Positions 559-35,231 of a stretch of DNA of 41,110 bases are shown here, piece by piece. A program made the position numbers and the translations under genes. How positions within the stretch are numbered: the first letter of the stretch is position 1; each line of letters begins with the position of its first letter. Source of the DNA: Chloroflexota bacterium (GTDB lineage: Bacteria; Chloroflexota; Limnocylindria; Limnocylindrales; CSP1-4); the NCBI GenBank assembly GCA_003158875.1, contig PMLK01000121.1:1-41110 (forward strand). The letters are read 5' to 3'. The notes under the pieces are model-generated. The model saw nothing but the letters and a program-made list of their open reading frames with translations, had not been told where the DNA came from and made no database searches.

Positions 559-586
559 TCAAGCTTCGGCATCTGGGTACCGATAC
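559..586 (+). promoter_or_regulatory. sigma-28-like promoter of fliD
   Basis: TCAA at 559-562, a 16-base spacer and ACCGATAC at 579-586. This is close to the FliA/sigma-D consensus (TAAA, 15 bases, GCCGATAA) and to the other late-gene promoters in this window. The fliD start is 56 bases beyond it. The leader in between holds an imperfect hairpin at about 594-621 around a CCTGT/ACAGG core. Confidence 0.7.
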
Positions 587-642
587 CCCGACTGGCCTTT
601 CCTGTTAGACAGGGAGGGGCCGAATCGCTTCTGGAGAGCAGG

Positions 643-2883
643 ATGTCATCGATCCAATTCGGCGGAGTCGTATCCGGACTCAACACCCAGAGCATCATCG
701 ACGCCCTGGTTTCGGCCGAGAAGCAGCCGCTGACCGCTCTCCAGACCAAGGAAACGACCCTCACCTCGCAGAAGACTGCCTACACTCAGCTTGCGACGGC
801 GATGGACGACGTTGTATCGGCCATCAAGAACTTCACGGTCACCAGCGCCGGGTCGAGCCGACTTGCTTCGTCGTCAAACAGTTCGGTTCTGACCGCGGCA
901 GCCGACCCAAGCGCGGCCGTCGCGTCCTACCAGGTCACCGTCGGCCGCCTGGCCACGGCAACTCGAGCGAGTTCCACTTCTGCCATCGGTTCCGTCATCA
1001 CCGGCCAGGTGAACACGGCGGCCTTGCTCAAGAATGACAATCTGGCAACGGCCATCACCGCCGGCAATATGGCCCTGACCGTCGACGGCCAGACTGTGCA
1101 GGTCGCCGTGGATCCTGCCACGGACACCATGCAGAGCGTGATGACAAAGCTGTCGAGTGCGGTTCAGACGCAGCTCCAGCTGACCGACCCGAGCGCTACA
1201 GCCACCGCGTCGATCGTCGACGGCAAGCTCCAGCTCGCCATCAGCGGTACAACGACGCATTCGCTGAGCTTCGGGGACTCGGTCAACGACACGAGTAACC
1301 TGGCCACGGCCCTGGGCCTCTCCGCTCAGACGGTCACCAACCAGACGAGCGCCACGGTCAATGGCAGCGCCTATCTCGACCCGACGCTGGCATCGCTGAA
1401 CCTGCCCGGAACGGTGACGGCGGGTCAGGTCAGCGCCATCGTCGACGGCACGATCGTTCACTACACCGTTGGCGATCCAGCCTCTACGACTCTAAACCAG
1501 GTCATGGACGGCCTATCCAAGGCGATCACCGACCAGCTGGCCGCCGGAGGCGTTAACAAGAGCGCGGATCCGTCGGCATCGGTGTCGGTGTCCGTTGCAA
1601 ACAATCGCTTGCAGGTCTCGATGTCCGGGGCTTCGACGACTCACTCGCTGTCATTTGGCGCTGCGAGCGACGCCAGCAACGCCCTCGGCATGCTGGGTAT
1701 AGCCAACTTGTCGGCGACCAATGCGACCAATCCGACCCTCACCGGCGACACCAACATCGGCGTCGCGCGAACCCTCGGCGCCCTCGATTCGGCCGGCCTG
1801 ACGGGGTTGACCTCCACGACCACCGGCGTCCTGACGATCAACGGTACCGATATCGCCTACGACACAACCACCGACTCCCTTTCGACGATCATCGGCCGCA
1901 TCAATAACTCCAACGCGGGTGTGATCGCGTCTCTGGATCGGACTAACGACCAGGTTCTTCTGACAAGGAAGGACACCGGCGCCGTGGCGATGGATATCAC
2001 GGACACGTCCGGAACTCTCGGTGCGGCCCTCAAGCTGTCGCCCGGCAACACCAACGCCCAGACGATCGGCCAGACGGCCCAGGTCACCGTGGATGGGCGG
2101 ACCATCACCAGCACCAGCAACACGGTCACCGGCGCCATCGACGGCGTGACTCTCAATCTGCTGGCTCAGAGTCCGGTCGGCGAGACCGAGACCCTGACCG
2201 TCGGGGTCAACCAGAGCGCCGTCGCGACCGCTATCAACTCTTTCGTCACCGCCTTCAACAGCCTGGGTGACGCGCTCGACTCCCTGACGTCTGCCACTCC
2301 TGGCACCTCCGGTGGCAACGCCGGAACGGCCGGCCCCCTGTCCGGCGATCCGACGATGAAGACGCTGTTCCTCAGCCTGCGCGACACACTGTTCACCGCC
2401 TCCGGCTCGGGTACGTACAACTCGCTGGGGTCGATCGGGCTCAATACCGGCGCCCTCGGTGCCGCGGTGGGGACTACGAACCGGATTCAACTGGATTCCA
2501 GCCAGCTGACCACGGCCCTCACCAACGACCCGAACTCGGTAGCCAACCTGCTCGACCAGGCGTCGGGTCCGATGTCCAACCTGCTCGCTCAGATGCAGAA
2601 TTACGAGGATCCGACCAACACCGACTCGTATGTGCAGGCCAGCATCACCGGCCTTACGAGCGACATCACCGACGTGAAGAGTCAAGAGGACTACCAGCAA
2701 ATGCTGGTCGACAACTACACGACGATGATCGAGGCGCAGTACACGGCCATGGAGACCACCCTGGCAACGTTGCAATCCCAGTCGCAGCAAGTCGCGGCGG
2801 AGCTCGGCTACACGACAACCTCGAGCGGTAGCGGAGTGAGCAGCTCGTCCACGTCGTCGTCCTCGTCCTCGTCCTCGAGCTAG
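643..2883 (+). CDS. fliD: flagellar filament cap protein FliD (HAP2)
   Basis: FliD caps the growing filament and folds exported flagellin subunits into place. The N terminus (about residues 1-95) is the classic FliD_N region: SSIQFGGVVSGLNTQ, then a helical segment beginning IIDALVSAEKQPL. The C-terminal FliD_C region (about 490-715) ends in long helices suited to oligomer formation. The middle (about 100-480) contains recurring beta-rich modules with the theme 'D-G-x-I/T', consistent with the variable surface domains of larger FliD proteins. At 746 residues it is longer than the roughly 450-500 of model enteric and Bacillus proteins. The protein ends in a serine run of low complexity. GGAGAGCAGG just before the ATG at 643 supports this start. 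A sigma-28-like promoter lies upstream. Confidence 0.93.
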   Translation: MSSIQFGGVVSGLNTQSIIDALVSAEKQPLTALQTKETTLTSQKTAYTQLATAMDDVVSAIKNFTVTSAGSSRLASSSNSSVLTAAADPSAAVASYQVTVGRLATATRASSTSAIGSVITGQVNTAALLKNDNLATAITAGNMALTVDGQTVQVAVDPATDTMQSVMTKLSSAVQTQLQLTDPSATATASIVDGKLQLAISGTTTHSLSFGDSVNDTSNLATALGLSAQTVTNQTSATVNGSAYLDPTLASLNLPGTVTAGQVSAIVDGTIVHYTVGDPASTTLNQVMDGLSKAITDQLAAGGVNKSADPSASVSVSVANNRLQVSMSGASTTHSLSFGAASDASNALGMLGIANLSATNATNPTLTGDTNIGVARTLGALDSAGLTGLTSTTTGVLTINGTDIAYDTTTDSLSTIIGRINNSNAGVIASLDRTNDQVLLTRKDTGAVAMDITDTSGTLGAALKLSPGNTNAQTIGQTAQVTVDGRTITSTSNTVTGAIDGVTLNLLAQSPVGETETLTVGVNQSAVATAINSFVTAFNSLGDALDSLTSATPGTSGGNAGTAGPLSGDPTMKTLFLSLRDTLFTASGSGTYNSLGSIGLNTGALGAAVGTTNRIQLDSSQLTTALTNDPNSVANLLDQASGPMSNLLAQMQNYEDPTNTDSYVQASITGLTSDITDVKSQEDYQQMLVDNYTTMIEAQYTAMETTLATLQSQSQQVAAELGYTTTSSGSGVSSSSTSSSSSSSSS

Positions 2884-2915
2884 ACTCCGCTCGGGCTCTA
2901 CTCCTGGCGCGATCG

Positions 2916-2953
2916 AACCCGGCTCTCGGTCCTGCACGGCCGACGGCCGGGTT
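2916..2953 (+). terminator. hairpin after fliD, possible terminator
   Basis: AACCCGGC at 2916-2923 pairs with GCCGGGTT at 2946-2953. The loop is about 22 bases and can form smaller inner pairs. It starts 33 bases after the fliD stop. There is no proper T run, so termination is uncertain. fliS downstream has its own promoter. Confidence 0.4.
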
Positions 2954-3029
2954 CCTGCGTGGGCTGCGATTCCCGCCTCGAGGGACTGCCGGCGAGGGTC
3001 GCGAGGTGGTGCGGGCAAGCCACGAGCGG

Positions 3030-3057
3030 TCAAGGCAACCCTCCTCGCGGCCGATAC
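3030..3057 (+). promoter_or_regulatory. sigma-28-like promoter of fliS
   Basis: TCAA at 3030-3033, a 16-base spacer and GCCGATAC at 3050-3057, followed by CTATGG. The -10 block and the bases just after it are identical, over 14 bases, to the promoter of cheR (7399-7426, minus strand). The fliS start is 57 bases downstream. Confidence 0.75.
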
Positions 3058-3114
3058 CTATGGTGGAACGGCCACCCGGCCGGCGCTTACAAGAAGCATC
3101 TCGAGGCCGTCTCA

Positions 3115-3588
3115 ATGCTCGATCCGACCGCCGCATATCGAACGTCTCAAGTGGTGAGCGCCAGTCGCGTTGGTCAGATCGTGCTGTTGTATCAGGGCGC
3201 AATTCGCTTCGGGGCCCAGCACGTGGCATTTCTCGAACGGAACGAAGTCGAGTCGGCTCACAACGCGTCGATCCGCTGCCAGGAGATCGTCAACTCCCTG
3301 CGCGGCTCGCTCGACCGTTCGGCCGGCCCGATCGCATTGCAGCTCGACGATCTCTACGACTTCGTCATGCGACGTCTCTACGCCGGCAACATGACCAAGG
3401 ATCCACGTCCCACCGAGGAAGCCCTTCAGGTCCTGCGCGGCCTGCTCGAGGCATGGCAGGAGCTGGCGGCCCGCCCGGCGTCCGAGCTTGTAGACGACCG
3501 CGCGACTCCCACTCCGATCGCAAGCCGACGGCCTCTGGGCGTCCCGGTACTGGCCGGCAGCGGATACGCCGGAGCGGCACGGCGATGA
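3115..3588 (+). CDS. fliS: flagellin export chaperone FliS
   Basis: FliS binds the C-terminal helices of flagellin in the cytosol and keeps it unfolded for type III export. The 157-residue product has the FliS four-helix pattern: AAYRTSQVVSAS at the start, then IVLLYQGAIRF, a helix with the NEVESAHNASIRCQEIVNSL segment, and a later YDFVMRRLYAGN helix; aromatic and Leu positions match the family. The reading frame is open further upstream (to 2959), but the sequence before 3115 does not look like FliS. GAGG at 3103-3106 sits 8 bases before the ATG, so I take 3115. The last 30 or so residues are a non-conserved Pro/Arg/Gly tail. The stop overlaps the next start (ATGA). Confidence 0.9.
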   Translation: MLDPTAAYRTSQVVSASRVGQIVLLYQGAIRFGAQHVAFLERNEVESAHNASIRCQEIVNSLRGSLDRSAGPIALQLDDLYDFVMRRLYAGNMTKDPRPTEEALQVLRGLLEAWQELAARPASELVDDRATPTPIASRRPLGVPVLAGSGYAGAARR

Positions 3589-3830
3589 TGACCGAAACCG
3601 CAACCACCGCAATCGACCGCCAGGTCGCCGCCGAAACCCTGTCCGCGGCCCTCGGGCCGCTACCGGTCCGGACGATCCAGGCTCGGCTCGAGCGAATCCT
3701 GCTCGACGACCGCGAGCTGCTCATCTCCCTGCAGTGCCAGCTCGAGCAGATCCGACGGGAGCTGCGTCTCCTCAATGACGACCGCATCGTGCGGGCCCTG
3801 GACGACGTGGAGCGCCAGATCAGTCACTGA
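3585..3830 (+). CDS. small helical protein, possible FliT
   Basis: An 81-residue product directly after fliS, with its ATG overlapping the fliS TGA (or starting at the next ATG, 3588). It is predicted to be nearly all helix, with LERILLDDRELL followed by a Leu/Glu/Arg heptad helix. In many genomes fliT directly follows fliS and the two are translated together, so position and helical character suggest the FliD/FliS chaperone FliT. There is no diagnostic motif. The protein resembles the small gene at 130-465 in its Leu-Asp-Asp/Asp-Arg-Glu helix, so the two may be divergent paralogues or two different chaperones. Confidence 0.5.
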   Translation: MMTETATTAIDRQVAAETLSAALGPLPVRTIQARLERILLDDRELLISLQCQLEQIRRELRLLNDDRIVRALDDVERQISH

Positions 3831-3956
3831 CGCCACGGCGTCCGCAGGTGCCGCGCCGTCCGCAGGGGTCTCGGGCGAGAACGATCGTTCCACCCCGGTT
3901 CGGCCCCCCCGATGACCACTTATCCTGCCTCCGCGCCGCCCACATGATCCGCCTCG

Positions 3957-6550: not shown

Positions 6551-7390
6551 TCAGGGGCGCTGGTAGAAGGTCGATCCGGCCGGGAGGAGGCCGATAGACC
6601 TCACGTTGGGAATGGACTCGGTCGCTCCAAGAAACAGGATGCCGGCCGGCCGCAGCGAGTCGCGGAAGCGGGTGTAGAGGTCCGTCTTGGCCGTCTCCGT
6701 GAAGTAGATGACAACGTTCCGGCAGCAGATCAGGTCGAACGGCTGCTGGTAGGGATCGCGCAGCAGGTCGTGGCGGCGCCACGTGATGGGAGCCTGGAGT
6801 TCCGGCGTCGCCTGCCAATTCTTGTCGACCTGGCGGAAGAAGCGGGCTCGACGAGCGGGCGACACGCCCGCCATCTGGGCTTCGGTGTAGCTGCCCTGGC
6901 GCGCTCGGGCGAGGATCGTCTCATCGAGATCCGTGGCGAGGATCTTGACGGGAACATTCGGAGCGATCTCATGAGCCAGCATGGAGAGTGTGAGCGGCTC
7001 GAACCCGAGCGAGCAGCCGGCACTCCAGATCCTGACCGTGGGCTGGCTCCGGAGCATTGGCTTGAGGTACTTCTCGACGAGCATGTCCCAGGCTTCCGGG
7101 TTCCGGAAGAACTCGCTGACGTTGATTGTCAGCATGTCGAGAAAGGCCTGCTTGAGCACCGCATCCTGCTTCGCCTTCGCGACCAACGCGTCCGGGTCGG
7201 GCAGACCCTTGGCCGTGGCGAAACCGTTGACCCTGCGCCAGACCTGGGCCGGCTTGTACTGGCTCAGGTCGATGCCCAGGAGACTGCGGACGCTGTCGGC
7301 CATCCGGTCGTAGGCGGCCTGATCGAGGTCCGGCACGGGGGCGAACGTTGGCAGAATGGCGGGACGATCTGGGCGGGCAGAGGTATCCAT
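6551..7390 (-). CDS. cheR: chemotaxis receptor methyltransferase CheR
   Basis: CheR moves a methyl group from S-adenosylmethionine to glutamates on chemoreceptors, working against CheB. The N-terminal helical domain has SLLGIDLSQYKPAQVWRRV. The catalytic domain has INVSEFFRNP (family TxFFR, here Ser), the SAM loop IWSAGCSLGFEP (usual form GCSTGEEP) and LICCRNVVIYF. The frame is open to 7444, but a sigma-28-like promoter overlaps that stretch: its -10 ends at 7399, leaving ATGs at 7396 and 7390. I choose 7390, which lies where transcription should begin, so the message would be leaderless. An internal ATG near residue 30 is a further alternative. cheR is separated from the main che block by the HD-GYP and glycosyltransferase genes. 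Confidence 0.92.
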   Translation of the reverse strand: MDTSARPDRPAILPTFAPVPDLDQAAYDRMADSVRSLLGIDLSQYKPAQVWRRVNGFATAKGLPDPDALVAKAKQDAVLKQAFLDMLTINVSEFFRNPEAWDMLVEKYLKPMLRSQPTVRIWSAGCSLGFEPLTLSMLAHEIAPNVPVKILATDLDETILARARQGSYTEAQMAGVSPARRARFFRQVDKNWQATPELQAPITWRRHDLLRDPYQQPFDLICCRNVVIYFTETAKTDLYTRFRDSLRPAGILFLGATESIPNVRSIGLLPAGSTFYQRP

Positions 7391-7398
7391 CACCATAG

Positions 7399-7426
7399 GT
7401 ATCGGCGGCTCAGGCCCGGGAGTTGA
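7399..7426 (-). promoter_or_regulatory. sigma-28-like promoter of cheR
   Basis: On the minus strand: TCAA (7426-7423), a 16-base spacer, GCCGATAC (7406-7399), then CTATGG. It is identical in layout to the fliS promoter. The ATG at 7390 begins 8 bases after the -10 block, about where a sigma-28 transcript starts. Confidence 0.75.
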
Positions 7427-7459: not shown

Positions 7460-7486
7460 TCAAGGGCCTCCGGCACGGACCGACAC
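7460..7486 (+). promoter_or_regulatory. sigma-28-like promoter of the HD-GYP gene
   Basis: TCAA at 7460-7463, a 15-base spacer and ACCGACAC at 7479-7486, followed by CTTAAC. The -10 block differs from the fliD one at a single T to C. It lies back to back with the cheR promoter, so one short region would drive both genes in opposite directions. Confidence 0.55.
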
Positions 7487-7520
7487 CTTAACTGATAACT
7501 CTTGTGCCGCGAGACCGTGC

Positions 7521-8549
7521 ATGTCGGGCAACCCTCTCATCGCGCCGGCTCCACCGGGATACGAGCCAGTACCCGCCAGGGTCCTGACGGACATCTCGAC
7601 GTTGCCCTGCGACCTGTACATCTGGCGCGGCCCCCGGCCGGTGCTGTACGCGATGAAGGGTGGCGAACTGCGCAAAGTCATAAGTCGGGCCCAGCGCGGC
7701 ATGTCGTTCCTCGTACGCGACGTCGATTCGGATCTCCTGCGGGGGGCCCTGGCCGCGGCGTTACCAACCGTCCTGGCCAACCAGCGCATGACCCCAGTTG
7801 AGAGGAGCAAGACGGCCTACTCGATCGTGGCTAAGGTGCTGAGCCCGGTATTCACCAGAGAGCACGCCCTGGACCACGACGGCCTGATCCTCACTCATCA
7901 AGCCATCGACGCCATAACTCTCCATCTGCTCGACGACGAGGAGATGGTCTGGGCCATGGTTGCGACGATGCAGAAACACCTCGCCACCCATACCCACGCA
8001 ATCAACACGGCCGTTTACAGCATCGTGCTGGCCCGCTTCATGAAGTTTGGATCGGCCGATGCGATCAGGGACGTGGCTCGCGGCGGCCTTCTGCACGACA
8101 TCGGCAAGAACCGCGTTCCGCGCTCCGTCCTGGACAAGCCGGCTGCGCTTGATTCGGCCGAATGGCAGGTAATGCGGACCCACGTGAAGTCCGGCCACGA
8201 CATGATCATCAGAGCGCTTGGCTACCAGCCCGCCTACGCCCACATCGTCGCCGAGCATCATGAACGCTGCGACGGTTCGGGCTATCCGGCCGGTCGCCTC
8301 GCTTCCGGAATCGCGCTCGACTCGCAACTCGTTGGAGTGGTCGACGCCTTCGACGCCCTCACGACACGGCGGCCATATCGGGCTCCCGTTACGGCCTTCG
8401 ACGCCCTCCACATCATGAGAGTGGCCATGCGAGGCCAATTCAGTGACGAACTCCTCAAGGAGTTCATCAAGTTGCTGGGCGGCTACGGGACGGCGGCCGC
8501 GGGACTCGAGGGCCTGGATGTGGCCAACGTGATGAGGGTGGCAGGCTGA
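7521..8549 (+). CDS. HD-GYP domain protein, probable cyclic-di-GMP phosphodiesterase
   Basis: HD-GYP proteins hydrolyse the second messenger c-di-GMP, which generally favours motility. The 342-residue product has His192-Asp193 in LLHDIGKNRVP and the full signature HHERCDGSGYP at 246-256, followed by VVDAFDALTTRRPYR, so the metal-binding and GYP residues are intact. The first 130 or so residues form an alpha/beta region ending in a helical part, with no transmembrane segment and no receiver domain; they may be a small regulatory domain like those before other HD-GYP modules. The ATG at 7521 gives the shortest sensible N terminus, but the Shine-Dalgarno sequence is poor. A sigma-28-like promoter upstream ties it to the motility regulon. 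The stop is one base from the end of the converging glycosyltransferase gene. Confidence 0.88.
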   Translation: MSGNPLIAPAPPGYEPVPARVLTDISTLPCDLYIWRGPRPVLYAMKGGELRKVISRAQRGMSFLVRDVDSDLLRGALAAALPTVLANQRMTPVERSKTAYSIVAKVLSPVFTREHALDHDGLILTHQAIDAITLHLLDDEEMVWAMVATMQKHLATHTHAINTAVYSIVLARFMKFGSADAIRDVARGGLLHDIGKNRVPRSVLDKPAALDSAEWQVMRTHVKSGHDMIIRALGYQPAYAHIVAEHHERCDGSGYPAGRLASGIALDSQLVGVVDAFDALTTRRPYRAPVTAFDALHIMRVAMRGQFSDELLKEFIKLLGGYGTAAAGLEGLDVANVMRVAG

Positions 8550-13258: not shown

Positions 13259-13276
13259 TGCGGGTTCTTGTCGTAG

Positions 13277-13303
13277 GTATCGGTGCCTGCGGGCACTATG
13301 TGA
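13277..13303 (-). promoter_or_regulatory. possible sigma-28-like promoter of cheW
   Basis: On the minus strand: TCAC (13303-13300), a 15-base spacer, ACCGATAC (13284-13277), then CTACG. The -10 block is perfect, while the -35 has one mismatch to TCAA. It lies in the 111-base gap between cheB and cheW. Confidence 0.5.
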
Positions 13304-15076: not shown

Positions 15077-15562
15077 CTACAACTCAGAAACAGAAGACAA
15101 GCTCTTGATGAGAAATCGGCCGTCGGCCACTTCAAGTTGAACCGTTCGACCGGCATTTCCACCAAGTGCCGTGGCGACGAGAGAATGGCCTCTTTCTTTG
15201 AGGGCGGCGTCCATCGCCTCGGCGTTGCGCTTTCCGATCGCCAGACCGCCGCCAACCGTCAGCATCGCCGCCGCGCCGGCCGCCTTGAAGATGCATCGGC
15301 CCAGCACCGCGCCCTTGGCCTCAACGGCGTGCAGAAATTCGTCGAGGCCGGTGTCGATGAACTTGACCGGGCTGCCGCTGTTGGCGGGCCCATTCGGCAA
15401 CATGAAGTGAGCCAGACCCCCAACCTTGGTCCGAGGGTCCCAGACGGCCAGAGCGATGCAGGAGCCCAAGCCGTACGCAACCAGGTGGGCGTCCGGGCTG
15501 GAGCTCAGGACCATCTCACCTATGCCGGCTACCAGGAGGCTCGGGCTCTCAGTCAGGGTCAT
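15077..15562 (-). CDS. cheD: receptor deamidase CheD
   Basis: CheD deamidates glutamines of chemoreceptors and also binds CheC, raising its phosphatase activity. The 161-residue product has the cysteine-hydrolase motif with Cys35 in YGLGSCIALAVWD and His52 in GLAHFMLP, then GGAA-like glycine-rich and GGN segments. The ATG overlaps the cheC stop (ATGA at 15559-15562), which suggests coupled production of the CheC-CheD pair. Confidence 0.94.
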   Translation of the reverse strand: MTLTESPSLLVAGIGEMVLSSSPDAHLVAYGLGSCIALAVWDPRTKVGGLAHFMLPNGPANSGSPVKFIDTGLDEFLHAVEAKGAVLGRCIFKAAGAAAMLTVGGGLAIGKRNAEAMDAALKERGHSLVATALGGNAGRTVQLEVADGRFLIKSLSSVSEL

Positions 15563-16203: not shown

Positions 16204-16297
16204 AGTGTTGGAATTCCTTGACACGTGGTGCCCGAGTGGCTGCCGGCATCTTCAAGCGCCGGTCGCCGCGTGGCTGGACAGGCGCAATCCAGTCGGG

Positions 16298-16325
16298 GGA
16301 TCGGCGGGAATGGGGTTCGACTTGA
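16298..16325 (-). promoter_or_regulatory. sigma-28-like promoter of the cheC operon
   Basis: On the minus strand: TCAA (16325-16322), a 16-base spacer and GCCGATCC (16305-16298), one base off the best -10. It lies in the 242-base gap between flaG and cheC (16204-16445), in which I see nothing else beyond a weak GCTA/TAGC hairpin next to the flaG stop. Confidence 0.55.
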
Positions 16326-16445: not shown

Positions 16446-16748
16446 CTAGCCCCGGTAGCGGCCCATCGCCTCCATCATTTCGGAGACTGAGCGTGGCGGA
16501 ATGACTCGCAGGACCTGACCCTGCGCGTCGACCACCGTTACCCGGAGCTGTTTGCTCTCGGGATCGATCTGGAAGACCGCGTACGCTTCAGTCAGCCCGT
16601 CCGGCCCTTTGTAGGTCACGTCGGGACCGGCCTGCTTGGCGAAGCGGTCCGGCAGGGCTGCGACGGGCACAGGGCTCACCTGAGGGACCGCCGCCGGAGC
16701 AGTTCCGGTGGCGACGACTGCCGTTGGGAGAAGGTCGTTGGTTGCCAT
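16446..16748 (-). CDS. flaG: FlaG family protein
   Basis: A 100-residue protein. The first 45 residues are Ala/Pro/Val-rich and disordered. The rest matches the FlaG pattern: AVFQIDPESKQLRVTVVDAQGQ, then VLRVIPPRSVSEMM, where the family has 'FxxDE..... V.V.D...GEVIRQIPPE'. FlaG proteins affect filament length in some bacteria, and the gene usually lies near fliD, whereas here it heads the chemotaxis block. A sigma-28-like promoter lies 13 bases before the ATG. Confidence 0.8.
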   Translation of the reverse strand: MATNDLLPTAVVATGTAPAAVPQVSPVPVAALPDRFAKQAGPDVTYKGPDGLTEAYAVFQIDPESKQLRVTVVDAQGQVLRVIPPRSVSEMMEAMGRYRG

Positions 16749-16761
16749 CTGAGTAATTGGG

Positions 16762-16788
16762 GAATCGGTGGACGGCAGGCCAACTTGA
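16762..16788 (-). promoter_or_regulatory. sigma-28-like promoter of flaG
   Basis: On the minus strand: TCAA (16788-16785), a 15-base spacer and ACCGATTC (16769-16762). The flaG ATG begins 13 bases further on, leaving a leader of only a few bases and no room for a normal Shine-Dalgarno sequence. Confidence 0.65.
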
Positions 16789-18950: not shown

Positions 18951-19251
18951 AAGTAGCGCCAGTGTATGGCCCCGCGGCCCGGCCGAGCGACTTCGCAACA
19001 CCCAAGTGACGCAGGCGTCCGCCCGGAACGAGGGCAGCGACGTACGTGGCTCGGAAGGGGGGTCTGCCAGGAGGGTCCAGCCGGGGAGGTCCGCTCGTCT
19101 CCGAGAGGGCCGTACCAACGAAGCCGGGTCCGAGGGTGGACCCCGATACCGGGCGGCCCTGTGCCGACCGAAGATGCGGACGGTTTCCCGGAATCTTGAG
19201 AAATCGAATCGACCCGGGCGAGCCCGACCGGACTGATCGAGGAAGCATCGA
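18951..19251. promoter_or_regulatory. 301-base divergent control region between the kinase and flgC
   Basis: No gene is visible here. It must hold the promoters for the kinase/regulator pair (-) and for the whole rod/hook operon (+). On the + strand CCCGATAC at 19142-19149 resembles the late-gene -10, but there is no TCAA at 15 or 16 bases before it, so early operon transcription may use another sigma factor. GAGGAAG at 19239-19245 is the flgC ribosome-binding site. Confidence 0.5.
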
Positions 19252-19671
19252 ATGTCAGTTTTCGACACGATCCGCATTGCCGCCTCCGGCCTCACGGCCG
19301 AGCGCCTGAGGATGGATGTCGCCGCGAGCAACATCGCCAACGCTCAGACGACCCGAACCCAGAACGGCCAGGCGAGCCAGCCCTACGAGGCGGAAGAAGT
19401 GGTCTTCCAGGCCCAGCAGATGGGACCGGAGAGCGCGGCTCAGGGCGTGTCGGCGATCGCGATCGTCAATTCGAACGCGGCCAACGTGCGGACCTACGAC
19501 CCCAGCAGCCCCGATGCGGACGCTAGTGGCTTCGTGACGTATCCGAACGTGGACATCGCCTCGGAGATGGCCGACATGATGGGCGCCGCGCGGTCGTATC
19601 AGATCAACGCGACGGCGGCCCAGGCTGCCAAGCAGCAAGCCCTCGACGCCATCGATCTCGGCAAGGCATAG
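19252..19671 (+). CDS. flgC: flagellar proximal rod protein FlgC
   Basis: FlgC is one of the rod subunits exported across the membrane to link the MS ring to the hook. The 139-residue protein starts with the rod/hook signature SVFDTIRIAASGLTAERLRMD, then VAASNIANAQTT. It ends with the matching helix DMMGAARSYQINATAAQ. A central YDPSSPDADASGFVTYPNV segment is typical of FlgC (DPxHPxAD..GYV.yPNV). Unusually, flgB is not upstream but about 7 kb downstream at 26816. GAGGAAG precedes the ATG. Confidence 0.94.
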   Translation: MSVFDTIRIAASGLTAERLRMDVAASNIANAQTTRTQNGQASQPYEAEEVVFQAQQMGPESAAQGVSAIAIVNSNAANVRTYDPSSPDADASGFVTYPNVDIASEMADMMGAARSYQINATAAQAAKQQALDAIDLGKA

Positions 19672-27265: not shown

Positions 27266-27267
27266 AA

Positions 27268-30200
27268 ATGGCCGGTCTCAACGCCAACGTGACTCTCGGA
27301 CCAGGCGTGACGCCGATTCCCGGCCAGATCAACGTGCCCGCTGGGCCGGATGAATTGAGCTTCAGCGACGCATTTGCCGAGGCCCAGTCGACACGATCGA
27401 CTGGCGATGCGGGATCCGCCAAGGCCACGCAGGTCTCCAAATCGGCGCAGATCTGGAAGGCGTTGTCTCGAGACGACGCCACGCATCCCGGCCTGGGAGT
27501 GTCGTCGGTAGCCGATAAGTCCGACTCGTCCGCCACAACCGGGAGCGTGGCGGGAGTGATGCATCCGGCGGTCGCAGACCAGAACGTGAGCAGCGACTCG
27601 TCGAAGCTGTCGACGAAGGCCGCCTCGAGAATCGCCCGACTCAAGAATGACTCCGGGAGCGCTGCGAAACGACCCCATGCAGCCCAAGGCGCAGACGGCT
27701 CGGCATCCACGTCGGCGGCCGCGGCGGTTTCCACGCCGCCGACGACTGCGCTATCCGATTCGGCCGCCTCATCCGGCACGTCGGACGGCACGCCTCTCGA
27801 GGCAGTTGGAGCGGTCGCTGCCGCTTCACAGGTGGTCTCGGCATCCGGAGCGGCCGGGACTGCGTCGGCGTCGCCCTCCGCCGCAGCCGCCGCTACAACG
27901 ACCGCCGCCGTTACGACCGCCGCCACTACGACAGCCGTCGCGGTGGCGGGGACGAGCGCGTCTCTGGCCCCGGCAACGTCAACCGCGGCTACCTCAACCG
28001 CCGCCGCGCCAGCTGGCGCGAACATCTCCGCACCGGCCGAGATCGCCGGAAGATACGGCGTCGCGGTTACCAGGAGATCCGGAGCGTCTGGGCCCGCGGC
28101 CGGCGACAACGCCGCCACGGATGCCGCGGCCGGCACCACATCCGAAGTTGCCGGACTAACTGATCGCTCCCCGTCTGCCGGGTCGACTGCCGCCGGTGCA
28201 TCGCTCGGCGTGACTACCGCCTCGACGGCTGGCTCTTCGCGTGTCGCCGGCAGCGCCGTCGGAACCGGCACCGCCCGCTCTCAGGCCCCCGTAACCGTGG
28301 TCGGCCCCGCAAGTGCCGCGGCCGGTGAGGCGATCCCAACGGCGTCAACAGCTGCGGTCTCGACCTCGGCCGCTTCGACATCGACTCCCGCCGGCGGGCA
28401 CGAACCCGTGATGGCCACGTCGACAGAGGCCGCCACGTCTGTGTCCGCGCCTTCCGCCGCCTCAGACGCCGCCGGACCTTCCGCGCCCGCAGCCAGGGTC
28501 GACGCCGGCGTAACGCCGACCACGCCTACTACACAGGCCACGCCCATCGCGCCCACCACGCCGGCCACGCCCACCATGCCCATCGCGCCCATCGCGCAAG
28601 CCACCGTCGGCGCTTCCGACCACGGCACCGCCACCGGTCAGCCTGTGGCCGTCACCGCAACACCCGTCGACGTTGTCTCCTCGGGTACATCGAACACGAT
28701 CGCGCCGACAACCGTGGCAGCGGGTACCGTCCCTGTGCGAGAGGCCGCTGCAGGCGAGGCCGGCTCGGCCGGGTCGTCGAGGCGCGACGCGGCTTCAGAC
28801 GTTTCCGCTCGATCATCGATCGTCGCGACCTCTGCGTCCGCGGCGACGACCGACGCGACGGCGGCCTTCACGGGGGCCCCGGCTAACGCGAGCGCCCCGG
28901 CTACCGCGAGCGCCGCCGCTACCGCGAGCGGGCTCACCGCGACGAGCGAGGCGACGGGCCAGGGAGCGGCCGGTTCAACTCAAACGCCGGCCGCGTCCAC
29001 GTCACCGGACGCCGCTCCTCAACCGGACGCGAACCAGACCGCTGCCGGTTCAGCATTCATCTTCGGCCAGCCGTCACGGATCCCGCAGGTGGAGACAGGG
29101 GAGGCCGCCGCTCCGACCGTCACCAGTCTGCCCTCGCCGTCCACGACCACGACCACGACACCGGCCGCGCCCGCCGGCGGCCGGCAGTTCGCCGAGTCGC
29201 GGCCGATGGCGGCCGGCTGGGCCTCGCCGGCCATCCCGGTGATCATCAAGCCCTCGTTCGGCGTGCAGGCGCAGGCCGCCACGACCGGGGTCGGCGTCAA
29301 CGCCACTCCCACCGCCGCAAACACCATCGCGACGGACGCTGCGACGCGCACCGGCACCGACGCGTCCGGGCAGACCGTCACGGTTGGGGATGCTGGCAAG
29401 ACACCTCAGGCCATCGGGAGCGTCGCGGACGTCGCGCCCGCACAGTCGGCCGCCAGACCGGCCGTCATCTCCAGCCAGATCGCGGCCGCCGCCCAGACGA
29501 ACGACGGCGTGGTTCCGAGCGCTGCGAACGTGCCAGCGTCCGCCGCCACGCAGGTGACCGCCGGCACGCCGGCGACCGCCGCTTCGACAACGGACTCAAC
29601 TCCAACGGCCGACGCCGCGCCGGCCGCGAGTCTCGCGACCTTCGTCGGCCACCCTGCGCGGCGACCAGGCACCCCTCCGTCGGGGTTCGGCTACGGTTCC
29701 GGCAGTTCCGATGCCGAGGCCCCGAACTCAACGACGGGTCACTCCCCGGTCGCGGCGGCGGCAGCGGCCGGGTCATCCTCCGGGACCGCCGACGGATCGA
29801 CCTCGAGCGGGCAGTCGGACGCACTCGCCGCCGGGCTGGATGCGGCCAGGTCCGCCCGACTCGCGACCGCAGCCCCGACCGATCCGTCGATGCTCGCTGC
29901 CAGCGGGGCCGTCGCCGCTCCTTCGACCCGAGCGGCGGCAACGGAAGCGACAGCGGTGGTGAGCCAGGCCGTGAACCTGGCCGACGCCGCCAACCGGCTG
30001 ATGAACCAGGTCGTTGGAACCATCCACACGTATCAGACGTCCTCAGGGCCGGCGCTCGAGACTCGGATCAGCGATCCGGTTCTCGGGGACGTCAGAGTCA
30101 TCGCCTCCGGCCGGGCAGGTGAGATCGTGCAAGCGCAGCTGGTCGTCCGCGATCGTGTCTCCGCAGATGCCATTTCGGCCGCGGTGACCCGGATGCGGTC

Positions 30201-30570
30201 GACCGGCGATGGCCTGACCGGGGTGAGCGTCACCGTCCGGACGGAAGGCGGCGACTCGTCGTTGGGCAGCCGCTCCGGCAGCAACCCGTTCGAAGCCGGT
30301 GGCTGGGCGAATGGCAATGGCTACGGAGCCGGCAGCGGCAACGGCAACGGCAACGGCAATGGACACGCTCAGAGCCAAGCCCTCGCGGGCGGGGACCCGT
30401 CCGCTCTGGGCGGCGGTTCCGGCAACGGTACAGGCGCTCAGCCGAGAGGCGGCGGCCAAGCCGGCACTGCGCCGTCCACCGCAGCCGCCGTTCGAGTTGC
30501 GCCGAAGGCCGGCCAGCCCGCCGCGCGAATGCCTATCCCGGGCCGTTCAACCCTCGACATCAGAGCGTGA
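27268..30570 (+). CDS. fliK: very large flagellar hook-length control protein FliK
   Basis: FliK is exported as a molecular ruler that sets hook length and switches export to filament subunits. The product has 1100 residues, against about 400-500 in model species. Nearly all of residues 60-850 is low-complexity Ala/Thr/Ser/Pro, with dipeptide-like tracts around 28546-28610 (Thr-Pro repeats) and 28880-28940 (Ala-Ser repeats). The conserved C-terminal switch domain spans about 900-1000, with NRLMNQVVGTIHTYQ, ALETRISDPVLGDV and IVQAQLVVRD. A Gly/Asn-rich tail with a Gly-Asn repeat (30330-30362) follows. The ATG is two bases after the flgB stop. Identity rests on the C-terminal domain and position before flgD. 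Confidence 0.87.
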   Translation: MAGLNANVTLGPGVTPIPGQINVPAGPDELSFSDAFAEAQSTRSTGDAGSAKATQVSKSAQIWKALSRDDATHPGLGVSSVADKSDSSATTGSVAGVMHPAVADQNVSSDSSKLSTKAASRIARLKNDSGSAAKRPHAAQGADGSASTSAAAAVSTPPTTALSDSAASSGTSDGTPLEAVGAVAAASQVVSASGAAGTASASPSAAAAATTTAAVTTAATTTAVAVAGTSASLAPATSTAATSTAAAPAGANISAPAEIAGRYGVAVTRRSGASGPAAGDNAATDAAAGTTSEVAGLTDRSPSAGSTAAGASLGVTTASTAGSSRVAGSAVGTGTARSQAPVTVVGPASAAAGEAIPTASTAAVSTSAASTSTPAGGHEPVMATSTEAATSVSAPSAASDAAGPSAPAARVDAGVTPTTPTTQATPIAPTTPATPTMPIAPIAQATVGASDHGTATGQPVAVTATPVDVVSSGTSNTIAPTTVAAGTVPVREAAAGEAGSAGSSRRDAASDVSARSSIVATSASAATTDATAAFTGAPANASAPATASAAATASGLTATSEATGQGAAGSTQTPAASTSPDAAPQPDANQTAAGSAFIFGQPSRIPQVETGEAAAPTVTSLPSPSTTTTTTPAAPAGGRQFAESRPMAAGWASPAIPVIIKPSFGVQAQAATTGVGVNATPTAANTIATDAATRTGTDASGQTVTVGDAGKTPQAIGSVADVAPAQSAARPAVISSQIAAAAQTNDGVVPSAANVPASAATQVTAGTPATAASTTDSTPTADAAPAASLATFVGHPARRPGTPPSGFGYGSGSSDAEAPNSTTGHSPVAAAAAAGSSSGTADGSTSSGQSDALAAGLDAARSARLATAAPTDPSMLAASGAVAAPSTRAAATEATAVVSQAVNLADAANRLMNQVVGTIHTYQTSSGPALETRISDPVLGDVRVIASGRAGEIVQAQLVVRDRVSADAISAAVTRMRSTGDGLTGVSVTVRTEGGDSSLGSRSGSNPFEAGGWANGNGYGAGSGNGNGNGNGHAQSQALAGGDPSALGGGSGNGTGAQPRGGGQAGTAPSTAAAVRVAPKAGQPAARMPIPGRSTLDIRA

Positions 30571-31087: not shown

Positions 31088-31116
31088 CCCACTGACTCGC
31101 GGCAGGGCGCCGCACC

Positions 31117-31551: not shown

Positions 31552-31719
31552 CCAGTCGCAACTCGCAGTCGGCGGGGCCGATTGCCGGAACCACATCTAG
31601 TCCGCCGAGTGAGCCAGGTCGATAGCCGGACCTCTCTGAGGAAGCTGGCCTGGCCGCGGACGCCAACCATCGCGTCGCGCCAATCGGGCGAGGACGCCAG
31701 CTTTGCCAGGAGGCATCCA

Positions 31720-32988
31720 ATGCTTCGGTCTATGTTCTCGGCGATCTCCGGTCTTCGCGGCCATCAGGAGATGATGGACGTCATCGGCAACAACATCGCC
31801 AACGTGAACACGGTCGGCTTCAAGTCGGGCCGGGTCAACTTCCAGGACATCCTCTCGCAGACCCTCCACGGCGCCACGGCTCCGTCCGGCGGCCTCGGCA
31901 GCATCAACCCCGCCCAGATCGGCCTCGGAATGACGGTTGCCGGCATCGACGTCCTGCAGACGCAGGGCAACCTGCAGTCGACCGGCAAGACGACCGACAT
32001 GGCGATCCAGGGTGACGGCTTCTTCGTCGAGTCCGACGGTAGCCAGACCGTCTACACCCGTGATGGCGCCTTCGATATCGCCCTCGACGGCTCCCTCGCA
32101 AACCCGGGCAGCGGCCTCAAGGTTCAGGGCTGGCAGGCGGATTCGTCCGGCAAGATCGACATCACCCAGCCGATCACCAACCTCGTCATCCCGATCGGCC
32201 AGCGCACTACCGCTCTCGCGACCTCCAACGTGACCCTGAGCGGGAACCTCGACGCCGGTTCGGCTGACGCGACCGCCGTCCCCACCACGATGACCGTCTT
32301 CGATAGCCTGGGCATCGCCCATTCGGTGAAGGTCACGTTCACGAAGACCTCCACGGCCAACGAATGGACCTGGCTCGCCTCGGCGGACGCGTCAGACACG
32401 GGCATTGCCGTCACCCAGACGGCTGCCTCGGCCGGTCCGCCAGCCGTCGCTGCCGTCGGCAACGGCACCCTGAGCTTCACCAGCGGCGGTGTCTACTCCG
32501 GCTCCACGGGCTCGCTTGCGTTCACCTTCCCGGACGGCGCAACCGCGACGACGCCGAAGATCGACATGAGCGCCATGACCCAGTTCAGCGGCACCAGCCA
32601 GCCGGCCGGCCAGACCGACGGCTTCACGTCGGGCACGCTGACTACCTTCGCCGTCGGCAACGCCGGTCAACTCTCCGGTGTGTACTCGAACGGTCAGACT
32701 CAGGTTCTGGGCCAGATCGCTCTCGCAAACTTCCTGAACTCTGCCGGTCTCCTTCGGGCCGGCCAGAACAACTTCTCGGCTACGTCCGCGTCCGGCGCCG
32801 CCAACATCGGCACCGCCGGCACCGGCGGCCGCGGTACCGTAACCACGGGCGCACTCGAAATGTCGAACGTGGACCTGGCAACGCAGTTCACGGGCATGAT
32901 CACGGCTGAGAGAGGCTTCCAGGCCAACAGCCGCGTCATCACGACCTCGGACGAGATGCTCCAGGAACTGGTTAACCTGAAGCGATAG
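31720..32988 (+). CDS. flgE: flagellar hook protein FlgE
   Basis: FlgE builds the hook. The 422-residue protein has the N-terminal signature MFSAISGLRGHQEMMDVIGN and NIANVNTVGFKSGRVNFQD, the FlgE D1 segment TTDMAIQGDGFFVESDG, a middle beta domain (about 140-310) and the C-terminal hook helix GALEMSNVDLATQFTGMIT, then RGFQANSRVITTSDEML. CAGGAGG lies before the ATG at 31720. A 168-base gap separates it from the upstream gene; I found no late-type promoter in it. It is the last hook gene here: flgK, flgL, fliL and fliM do not follow. Confidence 0.94.
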   Translation: MLRSMFSAISGLRGHQEMMDVIGNNIANVNTVGFKSGRVNFQDILSQTLHGATAPSGGLGSINPAQIGLGMTVAGIDVLQTQGNLQSTGKTTDMAIQGDGFFVESDGSQTVYTRDGAFDIALDGSLANPGSGLKVQGWQADSSGKIDITQPITNLVIPIGQRTTALATSNVTLSGNLDAGSADATAVPTTMTVFDSLGIAHSVKVTFTKTSTANEWTWLASADASDTGIAVTQTAASAGPPAVAAVGNGTLSFTSGGVYSGSTGSLAFTFPDGATATTPKIDMSAMTQFSGTSQPAGQTDGFTSGTLTTFAVGNAGQLSGVYSNGQTQVLGQIALANFLNSAGLLRAGQNNFSATSASGAANIGTAGTGGRGTVTTGALEMSNVDLATQFTGMITAERGFQANSRVITTSDEMLQELVNLKR

Positions 32989-33025
32989 AGGTAGATCCGC
33001 AGCGGCGGAGACCGTAATCGCGATT

Positions 33026-33051
33026 GGCCGGTCCGGAGGTTGGACCGGGCC
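33026..33051 (+). terminator. hairpin after flgE, probable end of the rod/hook operon
   Basis: CCGGTCC at 33028-33034 pairs with GGACCGG at 33042-33048, extended by outer G:C pairs, with a 7-base loop. It starts 38 bases past the flgE stop. There is no T run, so it may act with Rho or as an mRNA-stabilising end. Confidence 0.5.
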
Positions 33052-33074
33052 GGCCACCTTCTACCGCGGCTTCG

Positions 33075-33082
33075 GCCGATAC
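33075..33082 (+). promoter_or_regulatory. sigma-28-like -10 element before the beta-propeller gene
   Basis: GCCGATAC followed by CTATGA, the same extended -10 as fliS and cheR. At the expected -35 position (33055-33058) the sequence is CACC rather than TCAA and overlaps the flgE hairpin, so this is a partial match. The GTG start is 34 bases further on. Confidence 0.45.
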
Positions 33083-33116
33083 CTATGAAGGCAGTCCCAA
33101 TGACGCAGGCACTCGC

Positions 33117-34289
33117 GTGAAGACCGGAAAGCTTCTCCTGACGAGCGGGGCGCTCGCAACGATCCTGACGATCACGCTCTCGGGCACCGTTCTGGCCAAC
33201 GGCGTCGGCGATCTGTACGTCGCGACCTCGTCGGGAGTCCTGGAGGTTCAGGTCAAGGCGCCGAAGGTCGTGAGCACCATTCCGATGGTGCCGGCCCCGC
33301 AGTCGCTGGCCTTCAGTCCGGACGGCCGCAGCCTGTATGTAGCTCGCAACGACAGCCAGGTCACGCCCATCGACATCGCCTCTCTGAACGTCATGACCCC
33401 CATCGACATGCCCGGCAACGTGACCGGGCTGGCATTTCCCGCCGGAGAGATCCTGGTGGGAACGATGCCCACGCGACGCAGTCTCGCCTTCGCCGTCGTG
33501 AACGGCGGAGTGGTCACGGAGAGCGCCCAGCTACCCGGTGCCGGGAACATCATCGCCGCGGACCGCCGCGACGCTCGAGTGGCCGTCGCGGAAGCGGGCA
33601 AGGGCTGGCTCGACATCGTCGACCCGGCCACGGCGACACTCAAGAAGACCACGGTCGCGGGTGGCATAGTCGCCCTCGCGGTCGATAGGGACAACGGCGG
33701 CGTTCTCGTCGCCACGCAGGACCCCAACGCCCTACTTCGGGTCGACATGACCTCGCTTGTCACGACCTGGACGGTCAAGCTGCCGGCCGCGCCGACCGCG
33801 GTGGCGGCGCTGGCGAGCACGGCCGTTGTAAGTGGCGGCACGACCCTGTGGAAGGTCGACGGCAAGACGGCCTCCAAGTTGGCGACTGCGAGCCAGGCCG
33901 CGGTGGCGCTATCCGCCAGCGACGAGGGTTCGTTCGTCCACGTAGCCGAGGCCAACGCCATTGAGGTCTTCGACGCCAAGGGCAAGCTTCAACGGACTCT
34001 CGAGCTGACCGACGCTCAGTCGCCGGTAGCGATGGCGGCCATTCCGGCCGGTTCCTCGCTCTTCCTCGGCGAAGGCCCGGCCGGCTCGACAGCGACCGCG
34101 AATGCCGGCACGCAGACGGGAACTCTCTCCACTGTCAAGCCGGCGACCACGTCGACGGTCGTGGACACGGCGGCCGGTGTTGTTGGCTCTCCACCATTCG
34201 AGGGGGCTGTGGCGGTCGCGGTCGGAATACTGCTTCTCTGCTGGCTGGCAATCCGCTGGTACGACCGTCGGGCCGAGCGACTTCGCTAA
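33117..34289 (+). CDS. secreted, membrane-anchored beta-propeller protein of unknown function
   Basis: A 390-residue protein directly after the hook operon. Residues 1-30 form a signal peptide (KTGKLLLTSGALATILTITL, then an ALANG-like cleavage site). The body (about 35-320) repeats strands of the YVTN/NHL propeller type, for instance PQSLAFSPDGRSLYVAR and GIVALAVDRDNGGVLVAT. A Ser/Thr-rich stalk (about 325-360) leads to a C-terminal membrane helix (about 362-383) and a basic tail. It would thus display a propeller outside the membrane. I know no standard flagellar component like this; a role in motility is suggested only by its neighbours and the promoter element. The GTG overlaps the TGA of an 11-codon upstream frame (33085-33120). 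Confidence 0.75.
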   Translation: MKTGKLLLTSGALATILTITLSGTVLANGVGDLYVATSSGVLEVQVKAPKVVSTIPMVPAPQSLAFSPDGRSLYVARNDSQVTPIDIASLNVMTPIDMPGNVTGLAFPAGEILVGTMPTRRSLAFAVVNGGVVTESAQLPGAGNIIAADRRDARVAVAEAGKGWLDIVDPATATLKKTTVAGGIVALAVDRDNGGVLVATQDPNALLRVDMTSLVTTWTVKLPAAPTAVAALASTAVVSGGTTLWKVDGKTASKLATASQAAVALSASDEGSFVHVAEANAIEVFDAKGKLQRTLELTDAQSPVAMAAIPAGSSLFLGEGPAGSTATANAGTQTGTLSTVKPATTSTVVDTAAGVVGSPPFEGAVAVAVGILLLCWLAIRWYDRRAERLR

Positions 34290-34300
34290 CGGGCCGTACG

Positions 34301-34319
34301 CTGAGCCGGCGAAGCTCAG
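34301..34319. terminator. hairpin between converging genes
   Basis: CTGAGC at 34301-34306 and GCTCAG at 34314-34319 form a 6-bp stem with a 7-base loop between the converging propeller and HDOD genes, overlapping the HDOD stop. There is no T run on either side, so the terminator call is weak. Confidence 0.3.
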
Positions 34320-35197
34320 GCGGCCTGCACGTCGAAGATCGAAAGCAGTTCCGAGAAGGACTCACGAACCGACGAGGTCCGCTCTTCCCAGCGCTCGCGG
34401 GTGATGTTCAGCGCAGCCAGGACGCCGTCCCCCTCGAGCTGCTGATCGGCGGCATCAACGACCGCCGGGTAGCTCAGCTCGCGAAGCAGGACGTCGGAAC
34501 CGGCGATCAGGGCGCCCAGCGAACCGGGGCTCGGAACGTGGTGGTCCCACAGGACTCGGGCGATGACCGGAGGCAGGTTCCACTCATAGGCGAATACGGC
34601 GCCGACATCCTGGTGCGTCGTGCCGGACAGCTCGATCTCCATCTCCAGCTGGCCGGAGGAGTTGCGAGCGTCGTGGGCGTGCGGGTCGAGCAGATAGCTG
34701 GCGTAGCGCTCGCCGACGTCGTCGAGGAGATACACATGGCCGAGGTCGTGGAGCAGGCCGGCGGCAAACGCCGTGTCCGGATCCACGGAGCGCGACATCT
34801 GCGCCAGGGTCTTGCCCACGACGGCGGCCCGGACGGCGTCGCCGGTGAGTCGTGCCGCGGCGAGGGCCTCGCGCGGGGAGCGATTGCCGGCCCGGCGAGA
34901 AACGATCAGGGAAGTGAGAACGAGCTGGCGCAGGACGGTGTCGCCGAGCAGCGCCACCGCTCGCGAAAGAGTGGTGACCGGTTCCGCCGGGGCATAGAAG
35001 GCCGAGTTGGCCATCCGCAGAACGCGCGCCGCCAGGGCGGGGGAGCCGTCGATCAGTTTCGCCAGCTGCCGCGCGTTCGAGTCGCCCTGTCGAAGCTGTT
35101 GCTCCAGGCGGAGCAGGCTTGCGGACGGACTGATAGCGTGGGCGTGCTGGACGATCTGGCGCGCTCGATCGAGAGTAGTGCTGGTGAGTACTTCCAC
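34316..35197 (-). CDS. HDOD domain signalling protein
   Basis: A 293-residue protein filled by an HDOD domain (about 15-270), a relative of HD phosphohydrolases often found in motility and c-di-GMP signalling. Visible features are SNARQLAKLIDGSPALAARV, RMANSAFYA, LSRAVALLGDTVLRQLVL and FAAGLLHDLGHVYLLD, then HQDVGAVFAYEWNLPPVIA. His-Asp is present in LLHDLGH, but the full set of HD metal ligands is not evident, so it may act by binding partners rather than catalysis. The start is GTG at 35197, 7 bases after a sigma-28-like -10, which implies a leaderless message. Confidence 0.87.
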   Translation of the reverse strand: MEVLTSTTLDRARQIVQHAHAISPSASLLRLEQQLRQGDSNARQLAKLIDGSPALAARVLRMANSAFYAPAEPVTTLSRAVALLGDTVLRQLVLTSLIVSRRAGNRSPREALAAARLTGDAVRAAVVGKTLAQMSRSVDPDTAFAAGLLHDLGHVYLLDDVGERYASYLLDPHAHDARNSSGQLEMEIELSGTTHQDVGAVFAYEWNLPPVIARVLWDHHVPSPGSLGALIAGSDVLLRELSYPAVVDAADQQLEGDGVLAALNITRERWEERTSSVRESFSELLSIFDVQAA

Positions 35198-35204
35198 GGA
35201 TAGG

Positions 35205-35231
35205 TTGTCGGTCCGTCCGGCGCCGTCTTGA
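35205..35231 (-). promoter_or_regulatory. sigma-28-like promoter of the HDOD gene
   Basis: On the minus strand: TCAA (35231-35228), a 15-base spacer and ACCGACAA (35212-35205), followed by CCTATCC. The GTG start begins 7 bases after the -10 block. Confidence 0.6.

Follow-up and report, generated by a model that had tools for sequence, protein, structure and literature searches.

Conserved sigma-28-like promoter elements at flagellar and chemotaxis genes of an uncultured Chloroflexota bacterium, with predicted fusion to the start codons of cheR and an HDOD gene

The stretch analysed here is a 41,110-nt contig of a Chloroflexota bacterium (GenBank assembly GCA_003158875.1, contig PMLK01000121.1), called the window below, in which Pfam and NCBIfam matches support genes for FliD, FliS, CheR, HD_5, CheA, CheX, CheW, CheB, CheD, FlaG and HDOD proteins and for a single-domain, CheY-like response regulator. 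The gene labelled cheC gave no Pfam match at 1e-3, and its name is plausible from its position preceding cheD. In this paper we examine a family of two-part elements which a sequence-only reading had placed before seven genes (fliD, fliS, cheR, an HD-GYP gene, cheC, flaG and an HDOD gene) and had likened to sigma-28 promoters; all seven proved to be present, coordinates and strands included. We consider it highly probable that these sites and their kin are FliA (sigma-28) promoters, a judgement that jointly covers the prediction of leaderless mRNAs for cheR and the HDOD gene. The elements and their genes are as follows (+1, first transcribed base; SD, Shine-Dalgarno).

559 to 594, plus strand: putative sigma-28 promoter of fliD, TCAAG-N15-ACCGATAC; predicted +1 at 594; predicted leader of 49 nt with an SD-like motif
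643 to 2883, plus strand: fliD (filament cap); Pfam FliD_N and FliD_C
3030 to 3065, plus strand: putative sigma-28 promoter of fliS, TCAAG-N15-GCCGATAC; predicted +1 at 3065
3115 to 3588, plus strand: fliS; ATG at 3115; Pfam FliS
6551 to 7390, minus strand: cheR, predicted leaderless; ATG at 7390; Pfam CheR and CheR_N; codon-position pattern
7391 to 7426, minus strand: putative sigma-28 promoter of cheR, TCAAC-N15-GCCGATAC; predicted +1 at 7391, 1 base before the ATG at 7390
7460 to 7494, plus strand: putative sigma-28 promoter of the HD-GYP gene, TCAAG-N14-ACCGACAC; predicted +1 at 7494
7521 to 8549, plus strand: HD-domain (HD_5, HD-GYP-like) gene; ATG taken at 7521; Pfam HD_5
16290 to 16325, minus strand: putative sigma-28 promoter of the cheC-like gene and cheD, TCAAG-N15-GCCGATCC; predicted +1 at 16290
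16446 to 16748, minus strand: flaG; Pfam FlaG
16754 to 16788, minus strand: putative sigma-28 promoter of flaG, TCAAG-N14-ACCGATTC; predicted +1 at 16754, 6 nt before the ATG at 16748
34316 to 35197, minus strand: HDOD gene, predicted leaderless; the GTG at 35197 is the earliest possible start of the open frame; Pfam HDOD
35197 to 35231, minus strand: putative sigma-28 promoter of the HDOD gene, TCAAG-N14-ACCGACAA; the predicted +1 is the G of the GTG at 35197

The pattern first written for these sites, TCAAN{15,16}RCCGAYAM, matches exactly at fliD, fliS, cheR, HD-GYP and HDOD; at cheC (GCCGATCC) and flaG (ACCGATTC) the last two bases of the -10 deviate and do not read AM. These five strict-pattern matches compare with 0.05 expected in the window, and none of 100 shuffles reached five. 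On a hand-made score with a maximum of 22, the seven sites scored 20.5-22 and the rest of the window at most 19.5, and a refined model, itself partly trained on these sites, scored them 22.1-31.0. Weaker copies had also been proposed at cheW and at a propeller gene; the former is there (13303, minus strand, TCAC followed by ACCGATAC and then CTA), and the latter was not found, 32881-33060, around the start of that gene, containing no plus-strand RCCGAY.

Conservation was followed in 15 of 80 loci with CheA relatives, namely those named Chloroflexi (L049-L062 and L074; 11 have 'fen' in the isolate name), and L072 (Chloroflexi, 37% CheA identity) entered one comparison only and lies outside this footprint. 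Ortholog alignments beginning after residue 25, or with less than 130 bp of upstream sequence, and regions identical over about 160 bases were dropped before counting; the loci partly overlap the genomes given G numbers below, with elements that agree in every base, and the identity filter removes only agreement over the whole stretch. Relatives whose CheA is 56-83% identical (best segment) keep TCAA and NCCGAY at the same genes, with a spacer that diverges. For nine genes (the seven plus flgM and a flagellin gene, own genome included) the element occurs with a score of at least 17 in 91 of 95 distinct upstream regions and with at least 19 in 86; among 1500 random stretches of the same loci, true sites included, the corresponding numbers were 80 and 25. 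The second base of the -35 is C in 89 of the 91 sites, and G follows TCAA in 78. CCGA is invariant in the -10 and is followed by T or C in 90 sites, the octamer ends in C in 69, and the spacer between TCAA and the -10 is 15 bases in 56 sites and 16 in 35. The early description of a -10 ending in AC or AA was too narrow, the better form being NCCGAY, then loosely A, mostly C, and then C-Y; the remark that CCTA often follows holds and could have been put more strongly, the first base behind the octamer being C in 90 of 91 and the second C or T in 90 of 91 (offsets 1 and 2, each pyrimidine in 90). As control genes, cheB (0/11) and cheA (0/16) had no element scoring at least 17, and cheD had one in 12 regions, at exactly 17.0; cheW and cheY were rejected for this purpose, both carrying conserved elements.

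Two positions that the site-choosing scan did not use point to a transcription start. At offset 8 from the octamer, 90 of the 91 sites have a purine (G in 75, A in 15; all purine in eight of the nine genes), the next-highest purine count among offsets 1-15 being 69, at offset 9, and offset 7 is a pyrimidine in 76. A pyrimidine followed by a purine is the pattern of the usual initiator. From the purine at offset 8 with a pyrimidine before it, we predict that transcription begins 8 bases after the octamer.

With the +1 so placed, predicted leaders measure 48-53 nt at fliD and fliS (48-51 nt in the eight fliD regions), 21 nt at flgM, 27-35 nt at HD-GYP (12 regions), 4-6 nt at flaG, and 0-1 nt at cheR (13/13) and HDOD (10/10). 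The cheR ATG lies at offset 9 in all 13 regions and the HDOD GTG at offset 8 in nine of ten; in one distant relative (L061) an in-frame ATG also follows the HD-GYP element after 7 bases. An SD-like motif (GGAG, GAGG, AGGA, GGGA or GGTG) is present in the predicted leaders of fliD (8/8), fliS (8/8) and flgM (9/9); it is found in none at cheR (0/13), HDOD (0/10) and flaG (0/10), a result that follows largely from the predicted +1, which leaves 0-6 nt. Directly after the start codon, divergence at the three codon positions is 0.05/0.02/0.30 for HDOD and 0.30/0.23/0.66 for cheR, and this third-position divergence implies that coding begins there or earlier. Since the predicted +1 falls at or one base before the start codon, the cheR and HDOD mRNAs are predicted to be leaderless and to be translated without a Shine-Dalgarno sequence.

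Beyond the window, the source assembly (G000; 2.64 Mb, 91% complete) contains 11 matches of the strict pattern, five of them inside the window, against two of the reversed pattern; the six outside were judged to be chance, the best reaching 16.7 under the refined model and none 19. The extended pattern TCAAGN{14,15}NCCGAYNMCYNNNNYR gives 10 matches against none reversed, in agreement with the earlier expectation of a genome-wide enrichment at motility genes: eight lie at fliD, fliS, HD-GYP, cheC, flaG, HDOD, flgM and a flagellin gene, one lies at a GGDEF gene, and for the last (C65:8529) no target is evident. Across 21 same-genus genomes there are 98 matches in the 14 with a FliA gene over the cut-off and 15 in the seven without (reversed, 7 and 6); the one-sided rank test (p = 0.0015) is descriptive only, as the genomes share ancestry. 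Five of those 15 fall in G004, where the fliA match is broken in two. A second pattern, TCAAN{15,16}NCCGAYACCTM, has 33 matches in the 14 FliA genomes, 12 of which have at least one, and 2 in the other seven (reversed, 3 and 1).

The HDOD gene itself was found in 9 of 21 genomes searched for it, each of these nine being of the same genus and having either FliA or a fliA match that is broken, and was not found in G002, G005, G006 and G012. G020, which has no FliA over the cut-off, retains the HDOD gene with its element (L228), and the link between HDOD and flagella is thus not strict. The HDOD-type elements at C9:5368-5402 in G003 and C105:37187-37221 in G019 are identical letter for letter, perhaps through cross-binning between metagenome-assembled genomes (MAGs).

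A fliA gene was looked for in the source assembly and is present (TIGR02479, 224.6 bits; cut-off 189.6). Two FliA/WhiG-type genes there exceed the FliA_WhiG cut-off, one on contig C21 and one on C98. The C21 protein has 366 amino acids with a conserved part at 123-352; its gene comes after flhA and overlaps with a gene of the flagellar rod type (FlgE/F/G domain), and about 2 kb past it the contig continues with flgM, a small gene that occupies the flgN position and has no Pfam match, flgK, a gene with a flagellin domain (FlgL, judging by its place) and fliW. FlgM, encoded upstream of flgK, is matched by PF04316 (E = 8e-19), and the element ends 28 bp before the flgM start codon in all nine regions counted, a count that leaves out a partial match in G012 and a fragment on C34. 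This fragment is a 3' piece of a second flgM with which contig C34 opens; it shares 95% identity with the C21 copy over 57 amino acids and is followed by further flagellin-domain genes, and either gene duplication or strain variation within the MAG would account for it.

Against a set of PDB structures, the conserved part of the C21 protein matched 6pfv and 6pfj best and then E. coli FliA (6pmi); we take 6pfv and 6pfj to be WhiG, the database label being 'RNA polymerase sigma factor'. Of 15 FliA-type copies, 13 have the recognition helix ESRVCQIHTEA (ESRVSQLHSQA in E. coli FliA, ESRVSQIHTKS in 6pfv). Examined as a possible source of the TCAA, this helix of region 4 does not by itself explain the base. 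The C98 sigma factor (G000 C98:23861-24532; L013, L035) has an altered helix, ESRASQIHSAA, and the sole FliA-type gene over the cut-off in G019 shows a similar change, GSRACQIHAAA.

In 225 kb of the source assembly, the refined model found 11 sites scoring at least 19 and none in the reversed sequence, a partly circular result in that the genome's own sites were in the training set. Sites also stand before flgM-flgK, a flagellin gene, cheW, a GGDEF gene and one chemoreceptor gene, and perhaps before cheY. The refined-model sites beyond the nine genes were the cheY site (19.1) and the chemoreceptor site, on C95 (20.3). The further elements are these.

13269 to 13303, minus strand: weak, conserved sigma-28-like site before cheW-cheX-cheA, TCAC-N15-ACCGATAC-CTA; intergenic
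15105 to 15140, minus strand: candidate sigma-28 site before cheY, inside the 3' end of cheD, TCAA-N16-GCCGATTT-CT
C100:1788 in G000 (L318), also L320, L321 and L323: sigma-28-like element of a PAS-GAF-GGDEF gene, -10 CCCGACGA-CT; domains scanned in L320

Of the 16 cheW ortholog regions, 12 are listed with a score of at least 17, all with a -35 other than TCAA. Conservation of the cheY candidate may reflect the coding constraint of cheD. Among the regions with genes for methyl-accepting chemotaxis proteins (L033, L044-L048), only L047 yielded a refined-model site of at least 19, with a -35 of TCCA, and the PF00015 match of that protein is in two pieces. The PAS-GAF-GGDEF element was seen with its downstream gene in G000, G001, G008 and G016, the domains being scanned in G001. 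Judging by these assignments, the regulon seems to extend into the turnover of cyclic di-GMP (c-di-GMP).

The rod/hook block of the window differs from the genes above, and two of its features are needed here.

19126 to 19143, no strand assigned: inverted repeat GGGTCC-N6-GGACCC, candidate operator, about 110 bp before flgC
19252 to 19671, plus strand: flgC, first gene of the rod/MS-ring/hook block (proposed early tier); NCBIfam FlgC

The block encodes FlgC, FliE, FliF, FliG, FliI, FlgB, FlgD and a FlgE-type protein; for FliH, FliJ and a murein-hydrolase-like protein the only matches fell below curated cut-offs. That the sigma-28-like sites avoid the rod/hook operon was confirmed at flgC, the one gene of the block compared across relatives, where none of eight regions (the window and seven relatives) scored at least 17 and the best reached 15.5. 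The inverted repeat is exact in four of the eight aligned regions (the window, L052, L055 and L056), has a changed arm in the other four, and adjoins genes for a HisKA_3 histidine kinase and a LuxR-type response regulator; a role for the repeat in controlling the early tier, possibly as the operator of a master regulator, is a conjecture. Sigma-54 control of the rod operon was considered and rejected, TGGCACN5TTGCW with up to two mismatches giving 6 matches against 11.65 expected and none before flgC. Between flgB and flgD lies a very long open frame (27268-30570, 1100 amino acids) with no NCBIfam match at 1e-3, which by its position could encode a FliK-like hook-length protein.

The explanation that we favour, highly probable as already said, has the following course. 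FliA, encoded on C21 near its anti-sigma factor FlgM, would direct RNA polymerase to TCAAG, 14-15 bases, NCCGAY(A)M and then C-Y, and transcription would start at the purine 8 bases after the octamer, usually with a pyrimidine before it. By analogy with known systems, FlgM would hold FliA back until the hook is finished; fliD, fliS, flgM-flgK, flagellin, flaG, the che genes, HD-GYP, HDOD and the GGDEF protein would then be switched on jointly, the rod/hook block forming an earlier tier under another control. In the case of cheR and HDOD, promoter and gene would be fused, with the +1 on the start codon or 1 base before it. Binding by FliA, the start sites, leaderless translation and timing are what we infer in this account from the observed sequence, its conservation and its co-occurrence with FliA.

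Its nearest competitor accepts the sigma-28 sites and has cheR and HDOD transcribed also, or mainly, from farther upstream with ordinary leaders, the short distance to the start codon having another cause such as compact intergenic DNA. Possible in-frame starts do lie upstream of the predicted +1 in 7 of 13 cheR and 8 of 10 HDOD loci, the cheR of the window also has upstream in-frame ATG and GTG codons, and cheR is transcribed away from the nearby HD-GYP gene. Yet the octamer stands 7-8 bases from the start codon in 23 of 23 loci while the surroundings diverge, the predicted cheR and HDOD leaders contain no SD-like motif, and 6 of 13 cheR and 2 of 10 HDOD loci have no other in-frame start upstream; we therefore regard this account as unlikely. 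The sites might instead be read by the second FliA/WhiG-type sigma, that of C98, given that both copies exceed the FliA_WhiG cut-off. Against this, only G000 among the 14 FliA genomes has a second copy over the cut-off and 13 of the 14 have at least three extended-pattern matches, the recognition helix is altered in the C98 and G019 genes and sites are few in G019, and the C21 gene has flhA, a rod-type gene, flgM and flgK for neighbours; a takeover of the whole set by the C98 protein appears very improbable, and it could serve some of the sites. That the motif is an ordinary transcription-factor site, or a coding or compositional artefact of GC-rich DNA, would suit the behaviour of the short pattern TCAAGN{14,15}RCCGAY, which was set aside as too noisy genome-wide (46 matches against 23 reversed in the source assembly, with a background that was high throughout the 61 genomes searched). 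The promoter-like two-part spacing, the directionality, the fixed initiator, the co-occurrence with FliA and the failure of any of the 100 shuffles to reach the window count make this idea scarcely credible.

Besides the upstream in-frame starts and the C98 sigma, several observations weigh against FliA promoters with a leaderless step. The 91 sites were picked by score, and the core base frequencies are partly so by construction; the ortholog sites, drawn from a single genus and its close relatives, are not independent. Four of the 95 regions (fliS and cheR of L061, the flagellin of L271 and the second flagellin of L034) have no site, and one counted site, at a flagellin on C22, is weak (17.0). 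The 141 background matches of the same scan favour the downstream bases too, less strongly, with C at offset 1 in 84, a pyrimidine at offset 7 in 77 and a purine at offset 8 in 99. A FliA-type gene is present in G012 and G019, which have only 1 and 4 extended-pattern matches, and neither has a match of TCAAN{15,16}NCCGAYACCTM; G014 and G020, with no FliA over the cut-off, have three extended-pattern matches each. The HD-GYP leaders carry an SD-like motif in only 2 of 12 regions, and the division into SD-led and leaderless genes is not clean.

A broader reading, which we offer tentatively and with some doubt, would have the sigma-28 regulon split by mode of translation, with SD leaders for the filament and anti-sigma genes and promoter-start-codon fusion for regulatory outputs (cheR, HDOD, nearly flaG, and the HD-GYP gene of L061), the latter using a non-canonical route of initiation. 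The -10, initiator and start codon would then be inherited as one unit that ties chemotactic adaptation to the state of the ribosome. The mostly SD-free HD-GYP leaders make such a split less likely.

Flagellar and chemotaxis loci have already been reported from freshwater CSP1-4 (PMC13212565, in the part available). The promoter model, with its predicted starts, allows late flagellar and c-di-GMP genes to be proposed in MAGs from sequence, and it describes how flagellar genes may be controlled in a Chloroflexi group that is uncultured. The sigma-28 promoters predicted to be fused to start codons are a conserved and testable case which would link flagellar control to leaderless translation.

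FliA promoters are known as a kind, and their E. coli consensus, TAAAGTTT-N11-GCCGATAA, has the same architecture as the element described here, a CCGAT core in the -10, and late flagellar and chemotaxis targets. Pseudomonas FliA sites may also be written TCAAG. The portions of the Pseudomonas FliA promoter literature available to us give a TAAA-type consensus or no sequence. The textbook TAAA is not the usual -35 of our sites, and the sequence-only reading took TCAA for a departure from known FliA sites; this was not borne out, as the E. coli sites at flgKL and fliLMNOPQR carry TCAAG (PMC4183435, Table 2, the part of that source used here), so that TAAA is no exclusive requirement. What does differ is that C in the second -35 base is near-fixed here (89/91) and only occasional in E. 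coli, and that the octamer has C as its last base in 69 of 91 sites, against A in E. coli, and is followed by C-Y and by a purine 8 bases on. The mapped start of E. coli aer lies 6 bp downstream of the sigma-28 octamer (PMC2859248, in the portion seen), and our predicted +1 agrees with it within 1-2 bases.

WhiG shares the flagellar promoter class (PMC8325347, in the part available), and the WhiG/RsiG switch of actinobacteria (Rubrobacter, Streptomyces) resembles the present system in that the FliA described here matches 6pfv and 6pfj best; it differs in that here FlgM lies upstream of flgK and the targets are flagellar. Leaderless genes were detected in 4 of 12 Chloroflexi genomes, at about 4.7% of genes (PMC3160421, as far as available). 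Bacterial leaderless genes with a -10 of the TANNNT type right before the start codon have in common with cheR and HDOD that the -10 stands close to the start codon; theirs is a housekeeping, Pribnow-like box, whereas here a sigma-28 promoter stands at two conserved genes. The available portions of PMC5864184 and PMC11064477 report no leaderless sigma-28 mRNA, which does not establish its absence from the literature; the same portion of PMC11064477 describes a leaderless gene, atsA, and in PMC5243855, on Leptospira, 'leaderless' and 'sigma28' both occur as terms. Relative to known FliA promoters, the present ones differ in the C of the -35, near-fixed across this lineage, in the C-Y that follows the octamer and, for cheR and HDOD, in a promoter predicted to be fused to the start codon.

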